Assembly (NCBI GenBank): GCA_022827945.1 | Contig: JAJEIT010000072.1 | Span: 1 to 64,000 of the forward strand | Direction: 5' to 3' | DNA length: 64,000 nt | Origin: Dehalococcoidia bacterium | Lineage (GTDB): Bacteria; Chloroflexota; Dehalococcoidia; Tepidiformales; Tepidiformaceae | In this document: positions 2,942 to 27,998 of the stretch, in pieces | Layout: the number at the start of each line of letters is the position of its first letter | Position numbering within the stretch: position 1 is the first letter of the stretch | Position numbers and translations under genes: made by a program | Notes under the pieces: model-generated | What the model saw: only the letters and a program-made list of their open reading frames with translations | What the model was told of the DNA's origin: nothing | Database searches by the model: none

Positions 2942-4996
2942 CTAGGCGGCAACGAGCGCGGGCGCGATTACCGCCCCCGCCGCCCCCAGGAACACCGCCA
3001 GCGCCAGCCCTGTCTCCGCCGGCACGCCCTGCTTGCCGCCGCCCCTCCCCGCCAGCGCCAGCCCCGCGATCAGCGCCGCCAGCGCCGCCCCCGCAGCCAC
3101 CTCCCAGCCCGCGTTCCCCCCGACCGCCGGCCTCACGATCAGCGCCGCCGCCACCGGAACCGCCGCCGCCACCAGCACCGCCCCCAGCGTCCGCGCCACC
3201 GCCGCGCGCCGCCCCGCCGCCGCCAGCCCGATCGCGGCCAGCAGTCCCGTCAGCGCGACCAGCGCCCCCAACCCCACCAGCCGGTCGAGCCGCAGCGGCG
3301 GTAGCGAGGGGAACGGCAACGGTCCGCCCGCGATCGCCCTGGTGCCCTCGTCGAGCCGTCCCTGCTCGGCGCGAAGCTCCAGCAGGCGCCGCGTCTCCGC
3401 CTCCCCCGCGAGCAGGAGCTGCGGCACGTCGGCCGCGTGAACGTCGTGCCGGTCGAGCAGGTCGCGGTACGAGGCCAGGTCGTAGGCCGTCTGCGCCTCG
3501 ATGTCCTCGAAGTCGGGCACGACCCCGAGCTCGGCCGCGATCTGCACGTACCTCGGCACGTCGCTCGCGGCCACGTTCCCGAGCTCCGTCCGCACGGCCA
3601 GCAGCAGCGCCCCCGCCAGGGCCGCCCCCACGAGCGCCGTCCAGCCGATGCCGTGGCACCACCCCGGCGCCAGCGCTCGCTGCGCCGTCGCCGTCAACGG
3701 TCCGAGCGGCATGGCCGCCGGGGCTGCTTCCTCGCCCTCGGCCGGCTCGGCTGCTTCCCGGGCGCGCTCCGCCAGTGCGACCGCGTTCGCCGCCCCCGAC
3801 CCAAACGCGCGGATCGCGACCGCCGCCGGGGCAAGCGCGAGCGCCCCCGCCGCCGCCATCGCCACCCCGTACAGCGCCGTCGCCGTCGAGCTGACTCCCT
3901 CGATCTCGACCTGCCACCCGAACGCGAACGCCGCCACCAGGCCGGCGCCCGTCAGCAGCGCGAAGGCGGCTCCCGTCCCCCGGTAGCTCGACCCGTCTCC
4001 CACGATCGCCCGTCCCGTCACGAACACCACGGCGCTCAGGCCCGCTCCCAGCAGCCCCGCGCCTGAGAACCACCACCGCCCCTCCTCCAGCATCGCGACC
4101 GGCGCGAGGAACGCCAGCGCGCCGCCCACGACCGCCGTGATCGCGTACCCCGCCACCACCGACCGCCCCGCGTTCCGCATCGCCCGCGTCCAGAACGGGA
4201 GTGTGATCCCTGCGATGGTCGCTGCGGCCAGCCCCAGCGCCATCACCACCAGCGGCGTCACGATCCAGACCAGGTCGTCGCCGAGCTGCGCCATCGGCGC
4301 CCCCAGCACGAGCCCCGCGCCGCCTGCCGCCGCCATCAGCGCCACCGCGTCCGCCCCGCCCGCCGCGCTCGCCGCCGCCTCGACCGCTTCCGCCTCCGGC
4401 CCCTCCTCCTCGTCCGCGTTCCCGCTCGCCGCGAGCAGCCGCGCCGCCATCGCCGTCAGGGCCGCCCCCGCCCCTGCCCCCAGCACCAGGAACGCCGCCT
4501 CGCTGCCCGGGATGTCCGCCAGGCGCGTCGCGATGCCGTACAGTCCCGCGACCCCCGCCACCGCCAGCGCTCCGCCCGCGAGCGCGGGCGCCGTGCCTGC
4601 CCACAACGTGATCGCCAGCGCCTGGCGCAGCGTCCGGTCCGCTGCCGTCGCCGCCCGTTCGCTCGCGCGCTGACCCAGAGCCAGTCCCGCGGCCGCCGTC
4701 GCAGCCGCCGCCAGCGCTCCGGCCAGCACCGCCAGCCCTGCCACCGCGCCCGACTCGACGCCGTCGCGATACGCCCCCACCGCCGCGCCGGCCCCTGCAC
4801 CGCCCGCCAGCCCCAGCGTCACGCTGAGGATGACGAACCGCCAGATGTACGAGCTGCCCAGTTCGCGGGTGCGCTCCGCGGTGGCGGCCACGCCCTCGCC
4901 GGGGCGCGTCCGCAGGAGGATGTCGAGGGCGAACCAGGTGGCGAAGACGACCGCCACCACCGCTGCGAGCGGAGTCGCGAGCTGCGCCACGATCAC
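2942..4996 (-). CDS. Divergent membrane pyrophosphatase paralog lacking catalytic motifs
   Basis: A 684-residue, alanine-rich polytopic membrane protein that follows the H+-PPase layout of its neighbour. The segment GAVAGLAVLAGALAAAAT through GQRASERAATAADRTLRQAL matches the HppA region GAILSASAGYLGM through RANVRTAAKAQEGLNPAL, and LYGVAMAAAGALAL matches YGIALAAVGMLAPL. The acidic signatures are gone: no GADLVGKVE, no DNVGDNVGD, and ATDAYGPVADNAGG is replaced by AIRAFGSGAANAVAL. The C-terminal GDTVGDPFKDTSG is absent too. It starts with GTG 51 bases after hppA and is probably co-transcribed. It should be unable to hydrolyse pyrophosphate; a partner or regulatory subunit role is inference. Confidence 0.75.
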   Translation of the reverse strand: MIVAQLATPLAAVVAVVFATWFALDILLRTRPGEGVAATAERTRELGSSYIWRFVILSVTLGLAGGAGAGAAVGAYRDGVESGAVAGLAVLAGALAAAATAAAGLALGQRASERAATAADRTLRQALAITLWAGTAPALAGGALAVAGVAGLYGIATRLADIPGSEAAFLVLGAGAGAALTAMAARLLAASGNADEEEGPEAEAVEAAASAAGGADAVALMAAAGGAGLVLGAPMAQLGDDLVWIVTPLVVMALGLAAATIAGITLPFWTRAMRNAGRSVVAGYAITAVVGGALAFLAPVAMLEEGRWWFSGAGLLGAGLSAVVFVTGRAIVGDGSSYRGTGAAFALLTGAGLVAAFAFGWQVEIEGVSSTATALYGVAMAAAGALALAPAAVAIRAFGSGAANAVALAERAREAAEPAEGEEAAPAAMPLGPLTATAQRALAPGWCHGIGWTALVGAALAGALLLAVRTELGNVAASDVPRYVQIAAELGVVPDFEDIEAQTAYDLASYRDLLDRHDVHAADVPQLLLAGEAETRRLLELRAEQGRLDEGTRAIAGGPLPFPSLPPLRLDRLVGLGALVALTGLLAAIGLAAAGRRAAVARTLGAVLVAAAVPVAAALIVRPAVGGNAGWEVAAGAALAALIAGLALAGRGGGKQGVPAETGLALAVFLGAAGAVIAPALVAA

Positions 4997-5047
4997 CGCT
5001 CGCCTCCTCTCGGCCCGCCCCGTCGAGGCCGCGGACCGGCGGCTACG

Positions 5048-17130: not shown

Positions 17131-17928
17131 ATGCGGCTGTCGACCGAGCGCCTCAGCCTCAGCTACAACGGCCGCGACGCCGTCCACGAGGTCACCCTCG
17201 ACCTCGAAAGCGGCGAGCTCATCGCCATCGTCGGACCCAACGGCAGTGGGAAGACCACGCTCCTGCGCGGCCTCTCCCGTCTGCTCCGGCCCGTTGCCGG
17301 ACACGTGCTCCTCGACGGCGAGGACATCCGCGCCATCAGCTCCCGGAGCGTCGCCCGCCGCCTCGCCGTCCTCCCCCAGGAGCACCCCGAGGGCGTCGAC
17401 ATCACCGTGAACGAGCTCGTCTGGCGCGGGCGCGCCCCCCACCAGGGCATCCTCCAGCGCGCCACCCCCGCCGACCACGAGGCCGTCGACTGGGCCCTCG
17501 AGGCCGCCGATGTCCATCACATCGCCGGCCGCCCCCTCGGCAGCCTCTCCGGGGGAGAGCGCCAGCGCGCCTGGATCGCCCTCGCCCTCGCCCAGCAGCC
17601 CCGCGTCCTCCTCCTCGACGAGCCGACGAGCTTCCTCGACGTGCAGCATCAGGTCGAGGTGATGGCCCTCCTCACCCGCCTCAACGCCGAGGGCATGACC
17701 ATCATCGTCGTCGTCCACGACCTCGCCCTTGCGGGCCGCTTCATGCAGCGCGTCATCGGCATGCGCGAGGGCCGCATCGCCTTCGACGGTCCCTCGCGAG
17801 AGGTGCTTCGCCCCGAGCCCCTGGAGGAGGTCTTCGGCGTGCCCATGCTCGTCCTGGAAGATCCCGAGAGCGGCCTGCCCGTTCCCCTGCCGAGATACCC
17901 GGAGGGCGCCGCCGGCCCGCAGGCCTAG
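17131..17928 (+). CDS. ABC transporter ATPase (FepC/BtuD type)
   Basis: A 265-residue ATP-binding subunit. Walker A is GPNGSGKTT (about residues 36-44), the Q-loop is LPQEHP, the signature is LSGGERQR, Walker B is VLLLDEPTSFLD and the switch histidine is VVHDLA. It energises uptake through the FecCD permease. The start ATG follows the permease stop by two bases. Its last four bases overlap the end of the convergent exported-protein gene. Confidence 0.94.
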   Translation: MRLSTERLSLSYNGRDAVHEVTLDLESGELIAIVGPNGSGKTTLLRGLSRLLRPVAGHVLLDGEDIRAISSRSVARRLAVLPQEHPEGVDITVNELVWRGRAPHQGILQRATPADHEAVDWALEAADVHHIAGRPLGSLSGGERQRAWIALALAQQPRVLLLDEPTSFLDVQHQVEVMALLTRLNAEGMTIIVVVHDLALAGRFMQRVIGMREGRIAFDGPSREVLRPEPLEEVFGVPMLVLEDPESGLPVPLPRYPEGAAGPQA

Positions 17929-19556
17929 GGGAAGGCGTTGTAGAGCGCGTCGTTGTCGCCGTCCTGCACGTCGGAGGTGACGCCTCCGATGGCGGCGATC
18001 GGCTTGTTACTCCTGATCACCATGCCGCCCATCATGCAGGTCGGCAGGGCGCCCAGCCCGGTCGTGTCCTTGTCGTCGGAGCCCTGGTCGAACACGAACG
18101 ATCCGTCGATGGTGATCGTGGTCTGGAAGAGCGCCAGGCCTTCGCACCCCTTGATTGCCTCGGCGGGGTTGTTCACCGCCACGATCTGGAGCTCCGCCTT
18201 CCCCCCGTCCGCGACCGCCACCCCGACCCAGCTGTTCGTGCCTTCCAGGTCCCGCCAGCCGTTGACGTTGCGGAAGACCAGCGGGAACTTCACGCTCGTC
18301 GTCGTCCGTCCCTTGGGCACCCCGTTCGCCGCCGCGTAGGCATCCGTGTCGCCCCGGTTCGCTCGCAGGAGCAGGGCGGCAACCGGTTCGTCCGCGTAGA
18401 CCGTCGCCCAGCCCTCGAAGCCCTCCGGCAGCTCGGCGCTGTCGTAGACGCTGTGCGTGACGCCCCCTCGCGCGGGCACCTCGATCTCGACCGTCACGAG
18501 CACGTCCCGGTCCGGATCGCCCCTGACCGTACCCTGGTAGACGATGCTGCCGCTCACGGCCTCGCCCCAGGGGTTGGCGATGGCGTACTCGGTCCAGTAG
18601 CCGCCCACCGACTTCTGCGCGAGTGGCATCACCACCCGCCTCGAGATGTCGTCCTCCGTCGTCCCCGGCCTGTCTTCGTCCACGACGAATCCGTTGTACG
18701 AGGCCAGCCGCGCGCTGCCGCCGTCCCCGCCGTAGAGGTCGACCGCCACCGTCACGGGCTGCGTCGAGTCGACCATCACGCTCATCAGGGCGTTCACCGT
18801 GCCCGAGGGCATGGCGATGGCCAGCGGTCCCGCGTCCGGGGCCAGCGTCATCTGACCGGTCGCCGGAATCGCCCAGCCCCCGTCCGGACAGCTCTCGCTG
18901 GCGACGTCGCTGGAGACGAGGGTCGTGCCCCCGTTCGAGGATGCCGCTCCCCTGCCCGGAACGAGCTCGTACGTGAGGGTGACGCACGCCACGTCGAGCC
19001 CCGCGTTCGCGATCGAGAAGCGGCTGTTGGTGACCGTTCCGTCACCCTCGTCGAGCTGGTTGGCCACGTACGGAAGCGCCACCCGCACCCCGCTCTCCGC
19101 GTAGGCGTTGTGGACCGCGTACGACCTCGTGTTCCCCGTTCCCACGGCCTCGCGCATGAGCAATGCGTTCAGCGGCCGGTCGCTTGAGAGCACTCCCACG
19201 CCCCGGAAGCCCGGCAGCAGCCCCTGGTTCAGGGCCTGGCTGAAGGTGCGCGTGCTCCACGCCGGGACTTCCGGGTGCATCTCGCTCGCGAGCGGAATGA
19301 GCACGCCCCCGGGCGTGTAGAAGTCCATCACGATCGTCGCCGGCTGCCGGCTGTTGTTCTGGACGAGGATGGCCGTGTGCTCCTTGCTCTCCGGCGAGAG
19401 CGAGGCGTTGACCTGGAAGGGAAGCCGCGGCCCGCGTGCCGACTCGCTCGCCCCCACCGGCGCGCTCCCGCTGCCCGCCGCCAGCGCCAGGAGCGCCAGC
19501 AGCCCGATCAGCACGGCCAGGGAGTGAGGGCGGACGCGTCGACCCAGACCTGTCAT
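17925..19556 (-). CDS. Exported protein with about three internal beta-rich repeats
   Basis: A 543-residue secreted protein. The N-terminus has a signal peptide (LAVLIGLLALLALAAGSGSAPVGA) without a lipobox. The mature part appears to hold about three diverged repeats of roughly 150 residues, each opening with a pattern like VQNNSRQPATIVMDFY, SIANAGLDVACVTLTY or AIANPWGEAVSGSIVY and continuing with a GF-G-SD-P-NALL type segment and a PLV strand. This suggests Ig-like or fibre-type surface modules. No catalytic motif is visible; function unknown. It converges with the ABC ATPase gene. Confidence 0.72.
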   Translation of the reverse strand: MTGLGRRVRPHSLAVLIGLLALLALAAGSGSAPVGASESARGPRLPFQVNASLSPESKEHTAILVQNNSRQPATIVMDFYTPGGVLIPLASEMHPEVPAWSTRTFSQALNQGLLPGFRGVGVLSSDRPLNALLMREAVGTGNTRSYAVHNAYAESGVRVALPYVANQLDEGDGTVTNSRFSIANAGLDVACVTLTYELVPGRGAASSNGGTTLVSSDVASESCPDGGWAIPATGQMTLAPDAGPLAIAMPSGTVNALMSVMVDSTQPVTVAVDLYGGDGGSARLASYNGFVVDEDRPGTTEDDISRRVVMPLAQKSVGGYWTEYAIANPWGEAVSGSIVYQGTVRGDPDRDVLVTVEIEVPARGGVTHSVYDSAELPEGFEGWATVYADEPVAALLLRANRGDTDAYAAANGVPKGRTTTSVKFPLVFRNVNGWRDLEGTNSWVGVAVADGGKAELQIVAVNNPAEAIKGCEGLALFQTTITIDGSFVFDQGSDDKDTTGLGALPTCMMGGMVIRSNKPIAAIGGVTSDVQDGDNDALYNAFP

Positions 19557-19808: not shown

Positions 19809-20660
19809 ATGCGCTGGATCATGCTGCTCGCGGCCGCCGTGCTCGTCGCGGTTCTCGTGGCGTGCGGTGGCGGGGACTCCTCGCCGGCTGCCCCCACCCG
19901 CACCGAGACCCCCCGCGCAACGGAGCAGCCCGCAGGAACCCGGGCGCCCACCTCGACGCCTGCGGCAACCGCCGCGGCTGCCGTCACCGCTACCGCCGAA
20001 CCGCAGGCGACCCAGCGGGGCGCGACAACCGAGGCTGCAACCCAAGCGGCCACGGAAGCCGCCACCCCGGCCCCCACGGAGGAACCCGAGGCCACCCGGC
20101 AGGCAGCCTCGACGCGGACCCCGGAGCCAACCCGGGGGGCAACGCCCGAGTCCACCCCCGAGACGGCCACCGAGGACCCCGAGCCGGCCGAGGAGCCGGA
20201 AGAGTCCGAGGAGCGGTCTACCGAGACGCCGGAGCCGGCAGACGATCCGGAACCCACGCAGGAAACCGCCCCCGAGGACGAGTCCACCCCGACCTCAACC
20301 GCCGCCGAGGCCGAGCCGGAGCCCGAACCCACACCCACCGATACCGCCGCCGATGTCCCCGAGGAGGCCGTCGCCTCCTCCCTGCCCCGGGTCTATTTCA
20401 TCCACACCGAGTGGTGATCGACCTGCCGGGCCCTCCGCCCCGTGTGGGCGGAACTAGAGCAGGAATACGCCGGCCGGATCGAGTTCATCCTGGTCGACCG
20501 CGAAAGTGACGATGGCGGCGAGTTCGCTCGCCGGCACAACGTCTTTTATCAGCCCGTATTCATCATCTACGAAGGCGATACGCTTGTGCGCCAGGACGCC
20601 ACCGTCTCCCGGGAGGCCGCCCTGCGCGCCTTCGTCGCCTCTGCCCTCGAGGAGGGATAA
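19809..20660 (+). CDS. Thioredoxin-like selenoprotein lipoprotein 1 (USTC active site; TGA at 20415 read as Sec)
   Basis: Read through the in-frame TGA at 20415-20417, this is a 283-residue lipoprotein. The signal peptide ends in a LVAC lipobox (Cys19). A low-complexity T/P/E tether of about 170 residues follows, then a thioredoxin-like domain VYFIHTEW-U-STC-RALRPVW with Sec203 and Cys206. The domain continues after the TGA with RIEFILVD, a likely cis-proline strand QPVFIIYEGD and a C-terminal helix to the TAA at 20658. Two sister genes downstream show the same TGA at the same place. A hairpin 23 nt past the TGA is a candidate SECIS. Probable role: extracytoplasmic thiol/disulfide or peroxide chemistry. 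As a plain stop, the TGA would remove the whole active site. Confidence 0.85.
20434..20452 (+). promoter_or_regulatory. Candidate bacterial SECIS hairpin, copy 1
   Basis: TCCGCCC and GGGCGGA form a 7-bp stem with a CGTGT loop that begins 23 nt after the TGA at 20415-20417. Bacterial SECIS elements lie within the coding region shortly after the UGA and carry a G in a small apical loop; this fits. The same 19-base core CTCCGCCCCGTGTGGGCGG occurs in both sister genes. Confidence 0.75.
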
Positions 20661-20662
20661 CC

Positions 20663-21103
20663 ATGCGCCTGACCGCCCTGATAGCAGCCACCGCCCTCGC
20701 CGCCGTGGTCCTTCTCGCCTGCGGAGGGAGCGACCCTGCCCCCACGGCAGCCCCCGCCCAGCCCGAGGCTACCCAGCAGTCCCAGGCCGCCGCCTCCGAT
20801 GGGGACTCCGCGGTCTCGTCCACGCCGAGGGTCTACTTCATCCACACCGAGTGGTGACCGACCTGCAATGCGCTCCGCCCCGTGTGGGCGGACCTGGAGC
20901 AGGAGTACGGCGACCGGATCGAGTTCTTCTCGGTTGACCGCGAAACGGAAGAGGGCCGGGAGTTCATCCGCGAACACGGACTCCCCGTCGGCCAGCCCGG
21001 CTTCGTCGTCTACAACGCCGCCGGGGAGGTGACCTACGCCGCCCTCGGCCCCACCCGGCCCGACGGCGTGCGCGACCTCGTCGAATCGGTCCTCCCCCAG
21101 TAG
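20663..21103 (+). CDS. Thioredoxin-like selenoprotein lipoprotein 2 (UPTC active site; TGA at 20855 read as Sec)
   Basis: Starts two bases after the stop of the first copy and encodes 146 residues when the TGA at 20855-20857 is read as selenocysteine. A LLAC lipobox (Cys20) and a short tether of about 35 residues lead to VYFIHTEW-U-PTC-NALRPVW, with Sec65 and Cys68. The post-TGA part (RIEFFSVDRETEEG, then VGQPGFVVYNAAGEV with the likely cis-proline) completes a thioredoxin fold. Downstream-only translation from the GTG at 20882 would lack a Shine-Dalgarno site and the active site. The cluster is almost certainly one operon with the first and third copies. Confidence 0.87.
20874..20892 (+). 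promoter_or_regulatory. Candidate bacterial SECIS hairpin, copy 2
   Basis: Identical stem-loop to copy 1 (TCCGCCC-CGTGT-GGGCGGA), with the loop again 23 nt past the TGA at 20855-20857. Flanking codons differ from copy 1, whereas the hairpin core is unchanged at synonymous sites. Confidence 0.75.
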
Positions 21104-21108
21104 CAGCC

Positions 21109-21510
21109 GTGCGTCCGCTAGCCCTCGCCGCCGCCGCAACCTTCGCGATAGCGGCGCTCGCGTGCGGGGGCGAACCCGATCCTGCGCAGTCCGACGGCGG
21201 CGCCACCGACACCTCTCCGGATGTCGTTGCCAACCCCCAGGTCTACTTCGTCCAGATCGACACCTGAGGACCGTGAAACCGCCTCCGCCCCGTGTGGGCG
21301 GCGCTGCAGGCCGAGTACGCGGACCAGATCGAATTCGTCACCGTCGACGCCAACACGCGGGCCGGTGCGGACTTTTCGGATATGTACGGCATCCGCGGGC
21401 ACCCCGGCTTCGTCGCCATCGACGCGAACGGGGAGGTGATTCACGCGGCGTTAGGCCCCTTCGACGAAGAGGGGTTGCGGGAGCTCGTCGCCTCGCTCGT
21501 GCCCGAGTAG
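21109..21510 (+). CDS. Thioredoxin-like selenoprotein lipoprotein 3 (UGPU active site; TGAs at 21265 and 21274)
   Basis: A GTG start five bases after the previous stop codon opens a 133-residue lipoprotein (ALAC lipobox, Cys19). Two in-frame TGAs, at 21265-21267 and 21274-21276, fall exactly where the thioredoxin CGPC cysteines belong: VYFVQIDT-U-GP-U-NRLRPVW, Sec53 and Sec56. The rest (IEFVTVDANTRAG, GIRGHPGFVAIDANGEV) is a clear thioredoxin fold with the cis-proline. Replacement of both active-site cysteines by Sec would give a diselenide enzyme. Random decay is unlikely to hit precisely these two codons and nothing else. The SECIS-like hairpin follows. Confidence 0.83.
21285..21301 (+). 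promoter_or_regulatory. Candidate bacterial SECIS hairpin, copy 3
   Basis: CCGCCC-CGTGT-GGGCGG again, with the loop 23 nt after the first TGA and 14 nt after the second TGA of the UGPU motif. The second distance is shorter than usual for a bacterial SECIS, so one element may have to serve two UGAs. Confidence 0.7.
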
Positions 21511-26983: not shown

Positions 26984-27463
26984 ATGCCCGTCGGACCCAA
27001 CGATCTCGAAACCGCCCGCAAGCTCTTTGAGGAAGGCGGATGGGGCAGCGGCGACCCCTACGGCCCCGACCAGTGGTTCGCCGAGGACGCCGTTATGCGC
27101 GACATCGTCGGCCATGAGGATGCGCTGCGTGGCCACGAGGAGATCCGCCAGTTCTGGGCGAGCCAGAAGGTCGGCATCACCCTGCGCGTCCCGGTCGAAG
27201 ACCTCTACGTCGCCGAGGGCCACCGCGGCGTCGCCGTCCTCTGGATGGCCTACGTCCAGATCATGGACGAGGAGAACGAGAACTACGCCAAGTGGATCAC
27301 CTTCGAGGGCATGTCCCGCCTCGAGTTCAACGACGAAGGCAAGGTGACGCTCGAGGTCGATTACCACCACGGCCCCCAGGGCGTGACCGATAGCTGGGTC
27401 GCCCACTGGAACGCCCGCCGCGCCCGCCCCTGGAAGGAGCTCGGCGAGATCACCGGCGCCTGA
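26984..27463 (+). CDS. SnoaL/NTF2-like protein, tandem copy A
   Basis: A 159-residue cone-shaped alpha+beta barrel protein judged by WFAEDAVMRDIVGHEDALRGHEEIRQFW and the terminal WVAHWNARRARPW. Such proteins are isomerases, hydrolases or binding proteins for small hydrophobic molecules. Shine-Dalgarno GAGGAG precedes the ATG. An adjacent copy with about 24 substitutions over 159 residues follows 55 bases downstream, including the leader, so this is a recent tandem duplication. Confidence 0.8.
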   Translation: MPVGPNDLETARKLFEEGGWGSGDPYGPDQWFAEDAVMRDIVGHEDALRGHEEIRQFWASQKVGITLRVPVEDLYVAEGHRGVAVLWMAYVQIMDEENENYAKWITFEGMSRLEFNDEGKVTLEVDYHHGPQGVTDSWVAHWNARRARPWKELGEITGA

Positions 27464-27518: not shown

Positions 27519-27998
27519 ATGCCCGTCGGACCGAACGATCTTGAAACCGCCCGCAAGCTCTTCGAGGAGGGCGGCTGGAGCAGCGGCGACCCCTACGGCC
27601 CCGACCAGTGGTTCGCCGAGGATGCCGTCATGCGCGACGTCGTCGGCCATGCGGAGCCCCTGCGCGGCCGCGAGGAGATTCGCGAGTTCTGGGCCAGCCG
27701 CCGGGTTGGTATCACCCTCCGCGTCCCCGTCGAGGAGCTCTACGTCGCCGAGGGTCACCGTGGCGTCGCCGTCCTCTGGATGGCCTACGGCCAGATCGTC
27801 GACGAGGAGAGCGACGACTACGGCAGGTGGGTCAGCTTCGAAGGCATGTCCCGCCTCGAGTTCAACGACGCCGGCGAAGTGACCCTCGAGGTGGACTACC
27901 ACCACGGCGGCCAGGGCGTCGTCGATAGCTGGGTCGCCCACTGGAACGCGCGCCGCGCCCGCCCCTGGAAGGAGCTCGGCGAGATCACCGGCGCCTAG
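27519..27998 (+). CDS. SnoaL/NTF2-like protein, tandem copy B
   Basis: Second copy, 159 residues, about 85 percent identical by eye to copy A, with the same leader sequence (CTGAGGAGTGCGCC) before the ATG. Most changes cluster in residues 45-65 and 88-105, regions that line the cavity in this fold, so the copies may have diverged in ligand. Function unknown. Confidence 0.8.
   Translation: MPVGPNDLETARKLFEEGGWSSGDPYGPDQWFAEDAVMRDVVGHAEPLRGREEIREFWASRRVGITLRVPVEELYVAEGHRGVAVLWMAYGQIVDEESDDYGRWVSFEGMSRLEFNDAGEVTLEVDYHHGGQGVVDSWVAHWNARRARPWKELGEITGA

Follow-up and report, generated by a model that had tools for sequence, protein, structure and literature searches.

The 64,000-nt window analysed here, from an uncultured bacterium of the Chloroflexota class Dehalococcoidia, holds three neighbouring frames on the plus strand that share one domain order: a lipoprotein signal, a tether, and a C-terminal thioredoxin domain. 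Gene 1 (19809–20660, +) encodes a lipoprotein of 283 residues when TGA is read as selenocysteine (Sec, U), in which a long tether of about 165 residues, rich in Pro, Thr, Glu, and Ala, precedes a thioredoxin-like domain with the motif U-S-T-C. Gene 2 (20663–21103, +; 146 residues, motif U-P-T-C) is preceded upstream by a GAGGAGGG-like ribosome-binding sequence, and gene 3 (21109–21510, +; 133 residues, motif U-G-P-U) begins with GTG; both likewise encode lipoproteins with a thioredoxin-like domain. The intergenic gaps measure 2 and 5 nt, and the three genes are therefore probably carried on one transcript; a simple scan found neither a sigma-70 promoter nor an intrinsic terminator for the set. 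The lipobox reads LVAC in copy 1, LLAC in copy 2, and ALAC in copy 3, is followed by Gly, and is retained in the orthologues; from this signal, the three proteins are predicted to be anchored in the membrane and to face outward.

Each frame contains TGA at the first active-site position of its thioredoxin-like domain (20415–20417, 20855–20857, and 21265–21267, all on the plus strand). In copies 1 and 2 the second active-site Cys is retained, and in copy 3 that position is occupied by a second TGA (21274–21276, +), which is kept in seven genomes. All three domains have in common a VYF strand ahead of the active site and an LRPVWA segment behind it. The preliminary description of this DNA had placed the lipobox, the tether, the thioredoxin-like domain, and the TGAs at 20415, 20855, and 21265 where we find them, and its observations that the second Cys persists in copies 1 and 2 and that protein similarity continues on both sides of the TGA hold as well. 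Its heading gave UGPU for copy 3, a motif that its reasoning did not discuss and that the second TGA at 21274 bears out.

Conventional gene calling returns the three genes only as fragments. Split genes starting at the internal GTG of the VWAE segment were considered and are unlikely, because the resulting pieces would have no active site and because conservation of the frame runs through the TGA.

Several other features of the window were recorded. A c-di-AMP riboswitch (ydaO/yuaA leader, RF00379; 87.6 bits) lies at 2660–2794 on the minus strand, and two near-identical tandem genes of 159 aa (26984–27463 and 27519–27998, +) are also present in genomes G033 and G034. The minus-strand gene at 17925–19556 encodes a 543-aa secreted protein that has no Pfam match and adjoins the set across the genus; a gene resembling it sits beside the single copy of genome G006.

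Domain family and predicted fold

With TGA written as Cys for profile scoring, all three copies exceed the PF00085 gathering cut-off of 23.5 bits (E = 3e-9 for copy 1, 5e-6 for copy 2, and 2e-9 for copy 3), and the Pro before the third strand of the thioredoxin domain (the cis-Pro loop) is conserved. Modelled with AlphaFold2, Cys being substituted for Sec, the copy 3 domain has a pLDDT of 87.6 and matches thioredoxins (rmsd 2.4 over 92 residues at the best Z, 12.7); the predicted fold of copy 3 is that of a thioredoxin. Copy 3 lacks the conserved Trp that precedes the active site, and in a PDB profile search the best match was TXNDC5, followed by several PDI chains. The TrxA equivalog TIGR01068 gives 22–34 bits for the three copies against a cut-off of 96.8, and no NCBIfam selenoprotein model reaches its curated cut-off for any of them. 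The SaoT model (NF040730) scores 12 bits against copy 2 (E = 0.12; cut-off 65), and the StoA, ResA, and DsbE profiles yield weak matches far below their cut-offs.

Conservation, selection, and origin of the set

The family occurs in 15 of the 38 genomes of the order, and all 28 of its copies carry an in-frame TGA, which lies in the active-site column wherever inspected. These carriers comprise seven assemblies of the genus with the same codons and eight further genomes of the order. Copies 2 and 3 are found in seven of the nine genus genomes, with copy 1 visible in six of these seven; in G030, the contig ends at the copy 1 site. Two members of the same genus depart from this pattern, G035 having a single copy and G028 none. 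Both TGAs are kept in 7/7 copy 3 orthologues, six of which read UGPU and the seventh UPPU. Elsewhere in the class and phylum, UxxC predominates among the weaker relatives, with CxxC in the same column in some of them, and among the relatives compared UxxU was seen in copy 3 only.

We estimated dN/dS for the region downstream of the first TGA between the source genome (G000) and its congeners. The values are 0.18–0.28 for copy 1, with one divergent orthologue at 0.73, 0.21–0.27 for copy 2, and 0.07–0.11 for copy 3, the lowest of the three copies. Purifying selection acts on the sequence that follows the TGA.

In a phylogenetic tree each copy forms one group (support 84–100), the outgroup branches are long, and the root is not fixed. 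The set is flanked by genes for a FecCD-type transporter and an unnamed secreted protein and then by two genes named from sequence only, one phosphotransferase-like and the other acyl-CoA-dehydrogenase-like. The flanking genes are common to G033 and G034 and, in part, to the single-copy genome G035 at the same site. Taken together, the tree and the shared flanks suggest that the set arose by tandem duplication in place from a single UxxC gene and that UxxU is derived, copy 3 having probably lost its second Cys to Sec later.

SECIS-like hairpins

The bacterial SECIS model calls for a loop of 3–9 nt, a stem of 4–16 bp, a G in the first two loop positions, a spacing of 16–37 nt, and an energy of at most −7.5 kcal/mol (PMC13188914). 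The hairpin after the first UGA agrees with this model in 3/3 genes. Genes 1 and 2 carry UCCGCCC-CGUGU-GGGCGGA (20434–20452 and 20874–20892, respectively, both +), with a 7-bp stem, a loop 23 nt downstream of the UGA, and an energy of −12.7 kcal/mol. In gene 3 the hairpin is CCGCCC-CGUGU-GGGCGG (21285–21301, +; 6 bp, −10.8 kcal/mol), and its loop lies 23 nt after the first TGA and 14 nt after the second, the latter spacing falling short of the usual 16–37 nt.

The compensatory changes in the stem (C-G to U-A, G-C to A-U, and C-G to G-C) exceed those in shuffled and slid controls. Pairing at the hairpin position is found in 96% and 86% of cells for the Sec genes vs 27% and 54% for nine Cys relatives; the hairpin is absent from the Cys relatives. 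Sequence by sequence, it is not significant against synonymous-codon shuffles (p about 0.1–0.3), and dinucleotide shuffles likewise lend it weak support. The hairpin signal thus lies in fixed position and covariation rather than in single-sequence shuffles. In copy 3, the isolated 45 nt after the first TGA prefer another fold, and the hairpin is not the minimum-energy structure.

UxxC thioredoxin-like lipoproteins were also observed in several other Chloroflexota families (loci L073–L087, L090, L094, L096–L098, L101–L103, and L105). They have motifs such as DAIWUPFC and a conserved hairpin of their own that is shifted downstream by one codon, to 26–27 nt (for example, GGCCCGU-CGUGC-ACGGGCU), and those scanned match no NCBIfam selenoprotein model at its cut-off.

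Selenocysteine machinery and TGA usage

The source genome (2.85 Mb, 95% complete) contains selA, selB, selD, and a tRNA-Sec with a UCA anticodon (71 bits). ARAGORN and gathering-score Rfam scans found no tRNA-Sec near selB; the gene lies on another contig. In the sampled class genomes of good completeness, selA is present in 17/17 TGA carriers and in 150/220 genomes overall; the hypergeometric P is about 0.001, with the caveat that related genomes are not independent. Over all completeness levels, 28/33 carriers have it.

Further TGAs occur in the same genome. Its selD (L018) has a TGA of its own (LTGCGGU), and four peroxiredoxin-like (Prx-like) genes have one each; the surroundings are clearly those of an active site in three (WUPFC once, WUGC twice) and read GGUTSE in the fourth. 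The WUPFC protein (L135, G000:C45) has a hairpin with a GGU loop, the two WUGC genes stand in tandem (L136, G000:C72), and the GGUTSE peroxiredoxin is at L134 (G000:C46). The selenoproteome of this organism exceeds the three-gene set.

TGA also serves as an ordinary stop. Of 16 other complete genes scored within 18 kb around the set, 5 end in TGA, as do further genes in related loci; the code as a whole has therefore not been reassigned. In two congeners (L053 and L054, about 4996–5003), the apparent stop of gene 1 is a TGA that shares bases with the gene 2 start codon ATG (TGATG), and one transcript would then use TGA as both Sec and stop.

Alternative readings of the in-frame TGAs

The fragmentary gene calls, together with the absence of the genes from G028 and the single copy in G035, could be taken to mean that the genes are decaying pseudogenes or that the TGAs are sequencing or assembly errors. 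We reject this reading as very improbable: the same codons recur in the seven genus assemblies and the eight further genomes, the codon is only ever TGA and lies in the active-site column wherever inspected, dN/dS behind it is 0.07–0.28, and the Sec machinery is present. Conservation of the arrangement across the genus likewise argues against decay. The preliminary description had judged repeated decay at one codon implausible, and recurrence in seven genus genomes under purifying selection supports that judgement; orthologues with a normal stop, its counter-case, did not appear, with no fixed TAA or TAG at the TGA positions. The other lines of evidence to which it pointed also emerged, namely selA, selB, selD, and tRNA-Sec in the genome, distant homologues with Cys in the TGA column, and a hairpin with covariation after the TGA. 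The conserved in-frame TGAs would also fit a genome-wide reassignment of TGA to a different amino acid, of the kind known from genetic codes 4 and 25, with no Sec at all. With TGA ending ordinary genes, Cys as the aligned residue of the relatives, and a dedicated tRNA-Sec and SelB present, this reading too is rejected, its probability being close to nil.

The reading of the second TGA of copy 3 is the weakest point of the Sec interpretation. That codon could be a true stop or be read by a near-cognate tRNA, so that copy 3 would exist only in a single-Sec or truncated form, and the 14-nt distance to the hairpin and the different fold of the isolated segment are in keeping with this. Against it, TGA persists in all seven orthologues, although a single substitution would turn it into a Cys codon, and dN/dS behind it is the lowest of the three copies, which makes a stop or near-cognate reading quite improbable. 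We consider it very probable that the set consists of expressed, Sec-containing, extracytoplasmic thioredoxin-like oxidoreductases, and it is from the evidence above that we infer Sec insertion.

Proposed mechanism and electron path

SelB and tRNA-Sec would decode the in-frame UGA codons, aided by the SECIS hairpin just downstream, and the lipobox would anchor the products to the outside of the cell membrane. There the three proteins may act as thiol/selenol-disulfide reductases outside the cytoplasm, copies 1 and 2 through a Sec-Cys pair and copy 3 through a predicted Sec-Sec (diselenide) pair. From general selenium chemistry, a diselenide pair should exchange fast and resist over-oxidation. 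Electrons would most likely pass from cytoplasmic thioredoxin to the membrane protein CcdA and from there to the set, and our best guess for the substrates is oxidised extracytoplasmic proteins or peroxidases. The source genome has one ccdA (L126, DsbD_TM), which does not adjoin the set; in G406, a CPFC relative is directly followed by a ccdA gene (L123, 4067–4783). A CcdA-fed reducing direction is a tentative assignment that falls slightly short of an even call. The extracytoplasmic redox relay suggested in the preliminary description is plausible; its support is indirect and comes from the ccdA of the source genome and the ccdA adjoining one Cys relative.

The proteins could instead contain Sec and work as oxidants or isomerases, the UxxU protein forming or shuffling disulfides outside the cell in the manner of PDI, DsbA, or DsbC. 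The PDB matches to TXNDC5 and PDI chains, the missing Trp of copy 3, and a ccdA that does not adjoin the set in the source genome would suit such a role, whereas the PF00085 assignment and the CGPC-like UGPU motif resemble reducing thioredoxins and ccdA adjoins a Cys relative; we hold this direction to be fairly unlikely. The reducing scheme in its fullest form, a CcdA-fed selenium relay of two Sec-Cys thioredoxins and one Sec-Sec thioredoxin with a graded potential, in which one hairpin serves two UGAs, is speculative and, as a whole, unlikely. If it were true, copy 3 would represent a naturally occurring thioredoxin in which Sec, from UGAs nine bases apart, takes the place of the two catalytic Cys, and the set would pass electrons to extracytoplasmic targets via a CcdA-fed, membrane-anchored relay.

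Comparison with known systems

ResA and StoA are CxxC proteins of the TlpA-like branch that are fed by CcdA. The present set resembles them in its predicted membrane-anchored extracytoplasmic thioredoxin fold and in the presence of CcdA in the source genome; it differs in having a lipobox rather than a plain membrane anchor, in having Sec, and in scoring far below their cut-offs. SaoT is, like copies 1 and 2 of this set, a UxxC thioredoxin-like selenoprotein, but its match is limited to the 12 bits given above.

UxxU is known in a Prx-like thiol:disulfide oxidoreductase (PF00578), in Prx-like 2 (GOS survey), in FmdB-type proteins, and in the metal-binding family NF041115. The animal protein SelL is reportedly a UxxU selenoprotein with a diselenide (Shchedrina, 2007, is said to have described it). 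As in copy 3, both active-site positions of these proteins are Sec; they belong, however, to other domain families, and no thioredoxin-domain lipoprotein of a tandem set is among them.

A Sec-containing thioredoxin (PF00085, UxxC) is already listed (PMC9312934, PMC13188914), and thioredoxin is given one Sec in a 2026 table of prokaryotic selenoproteins. The set shares the family and the Sec position with this protein, and copies 1 and 2 share UxxC; it differs in being lipid-anchored (as predicted), tethered, and in tandem, in the UxxU of copy 3, and in scoring far below the TrxA equivalog cut-off. Neither prokaryotic selenoprotein review (PMC9312934, PMC13188914) contains a tandem set of lipid-anchored thioredoxins of which one is UxxU, or mentions lipoproteins or Chloroflexota, and the set is not described in the selenoprotein literature searched on Chloroflexi, sponges, SAR202, and Dehalococcoidia, of which subscription papers were thinly covered. 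UxxC thioredoxins and UxxU motifs are thus each known separately; we count their combination in a tandem set predicted to be lipid-anchored as new because it is absent from both reviews and from the one-Sec thioredoxin table and no NCBIfam selenoprotein model covers the three genes.

The set extends the pattern of one Sec per thioredoxin by a UxxU thioredoxin that the genus conserves beside two UxxC paralogues, and it belongs to a wide Chloroflexota family of selenoproteins, predicted to be lipid-anchored, whose genes are cut at the TGA in conventional gene calling. It offers a test case for the possible service of a single hairpin to two UGAs lying close together and a natural comparison, in one fold, of Cys-Cys, Sec-Cys, and Sec-Sec active sites.
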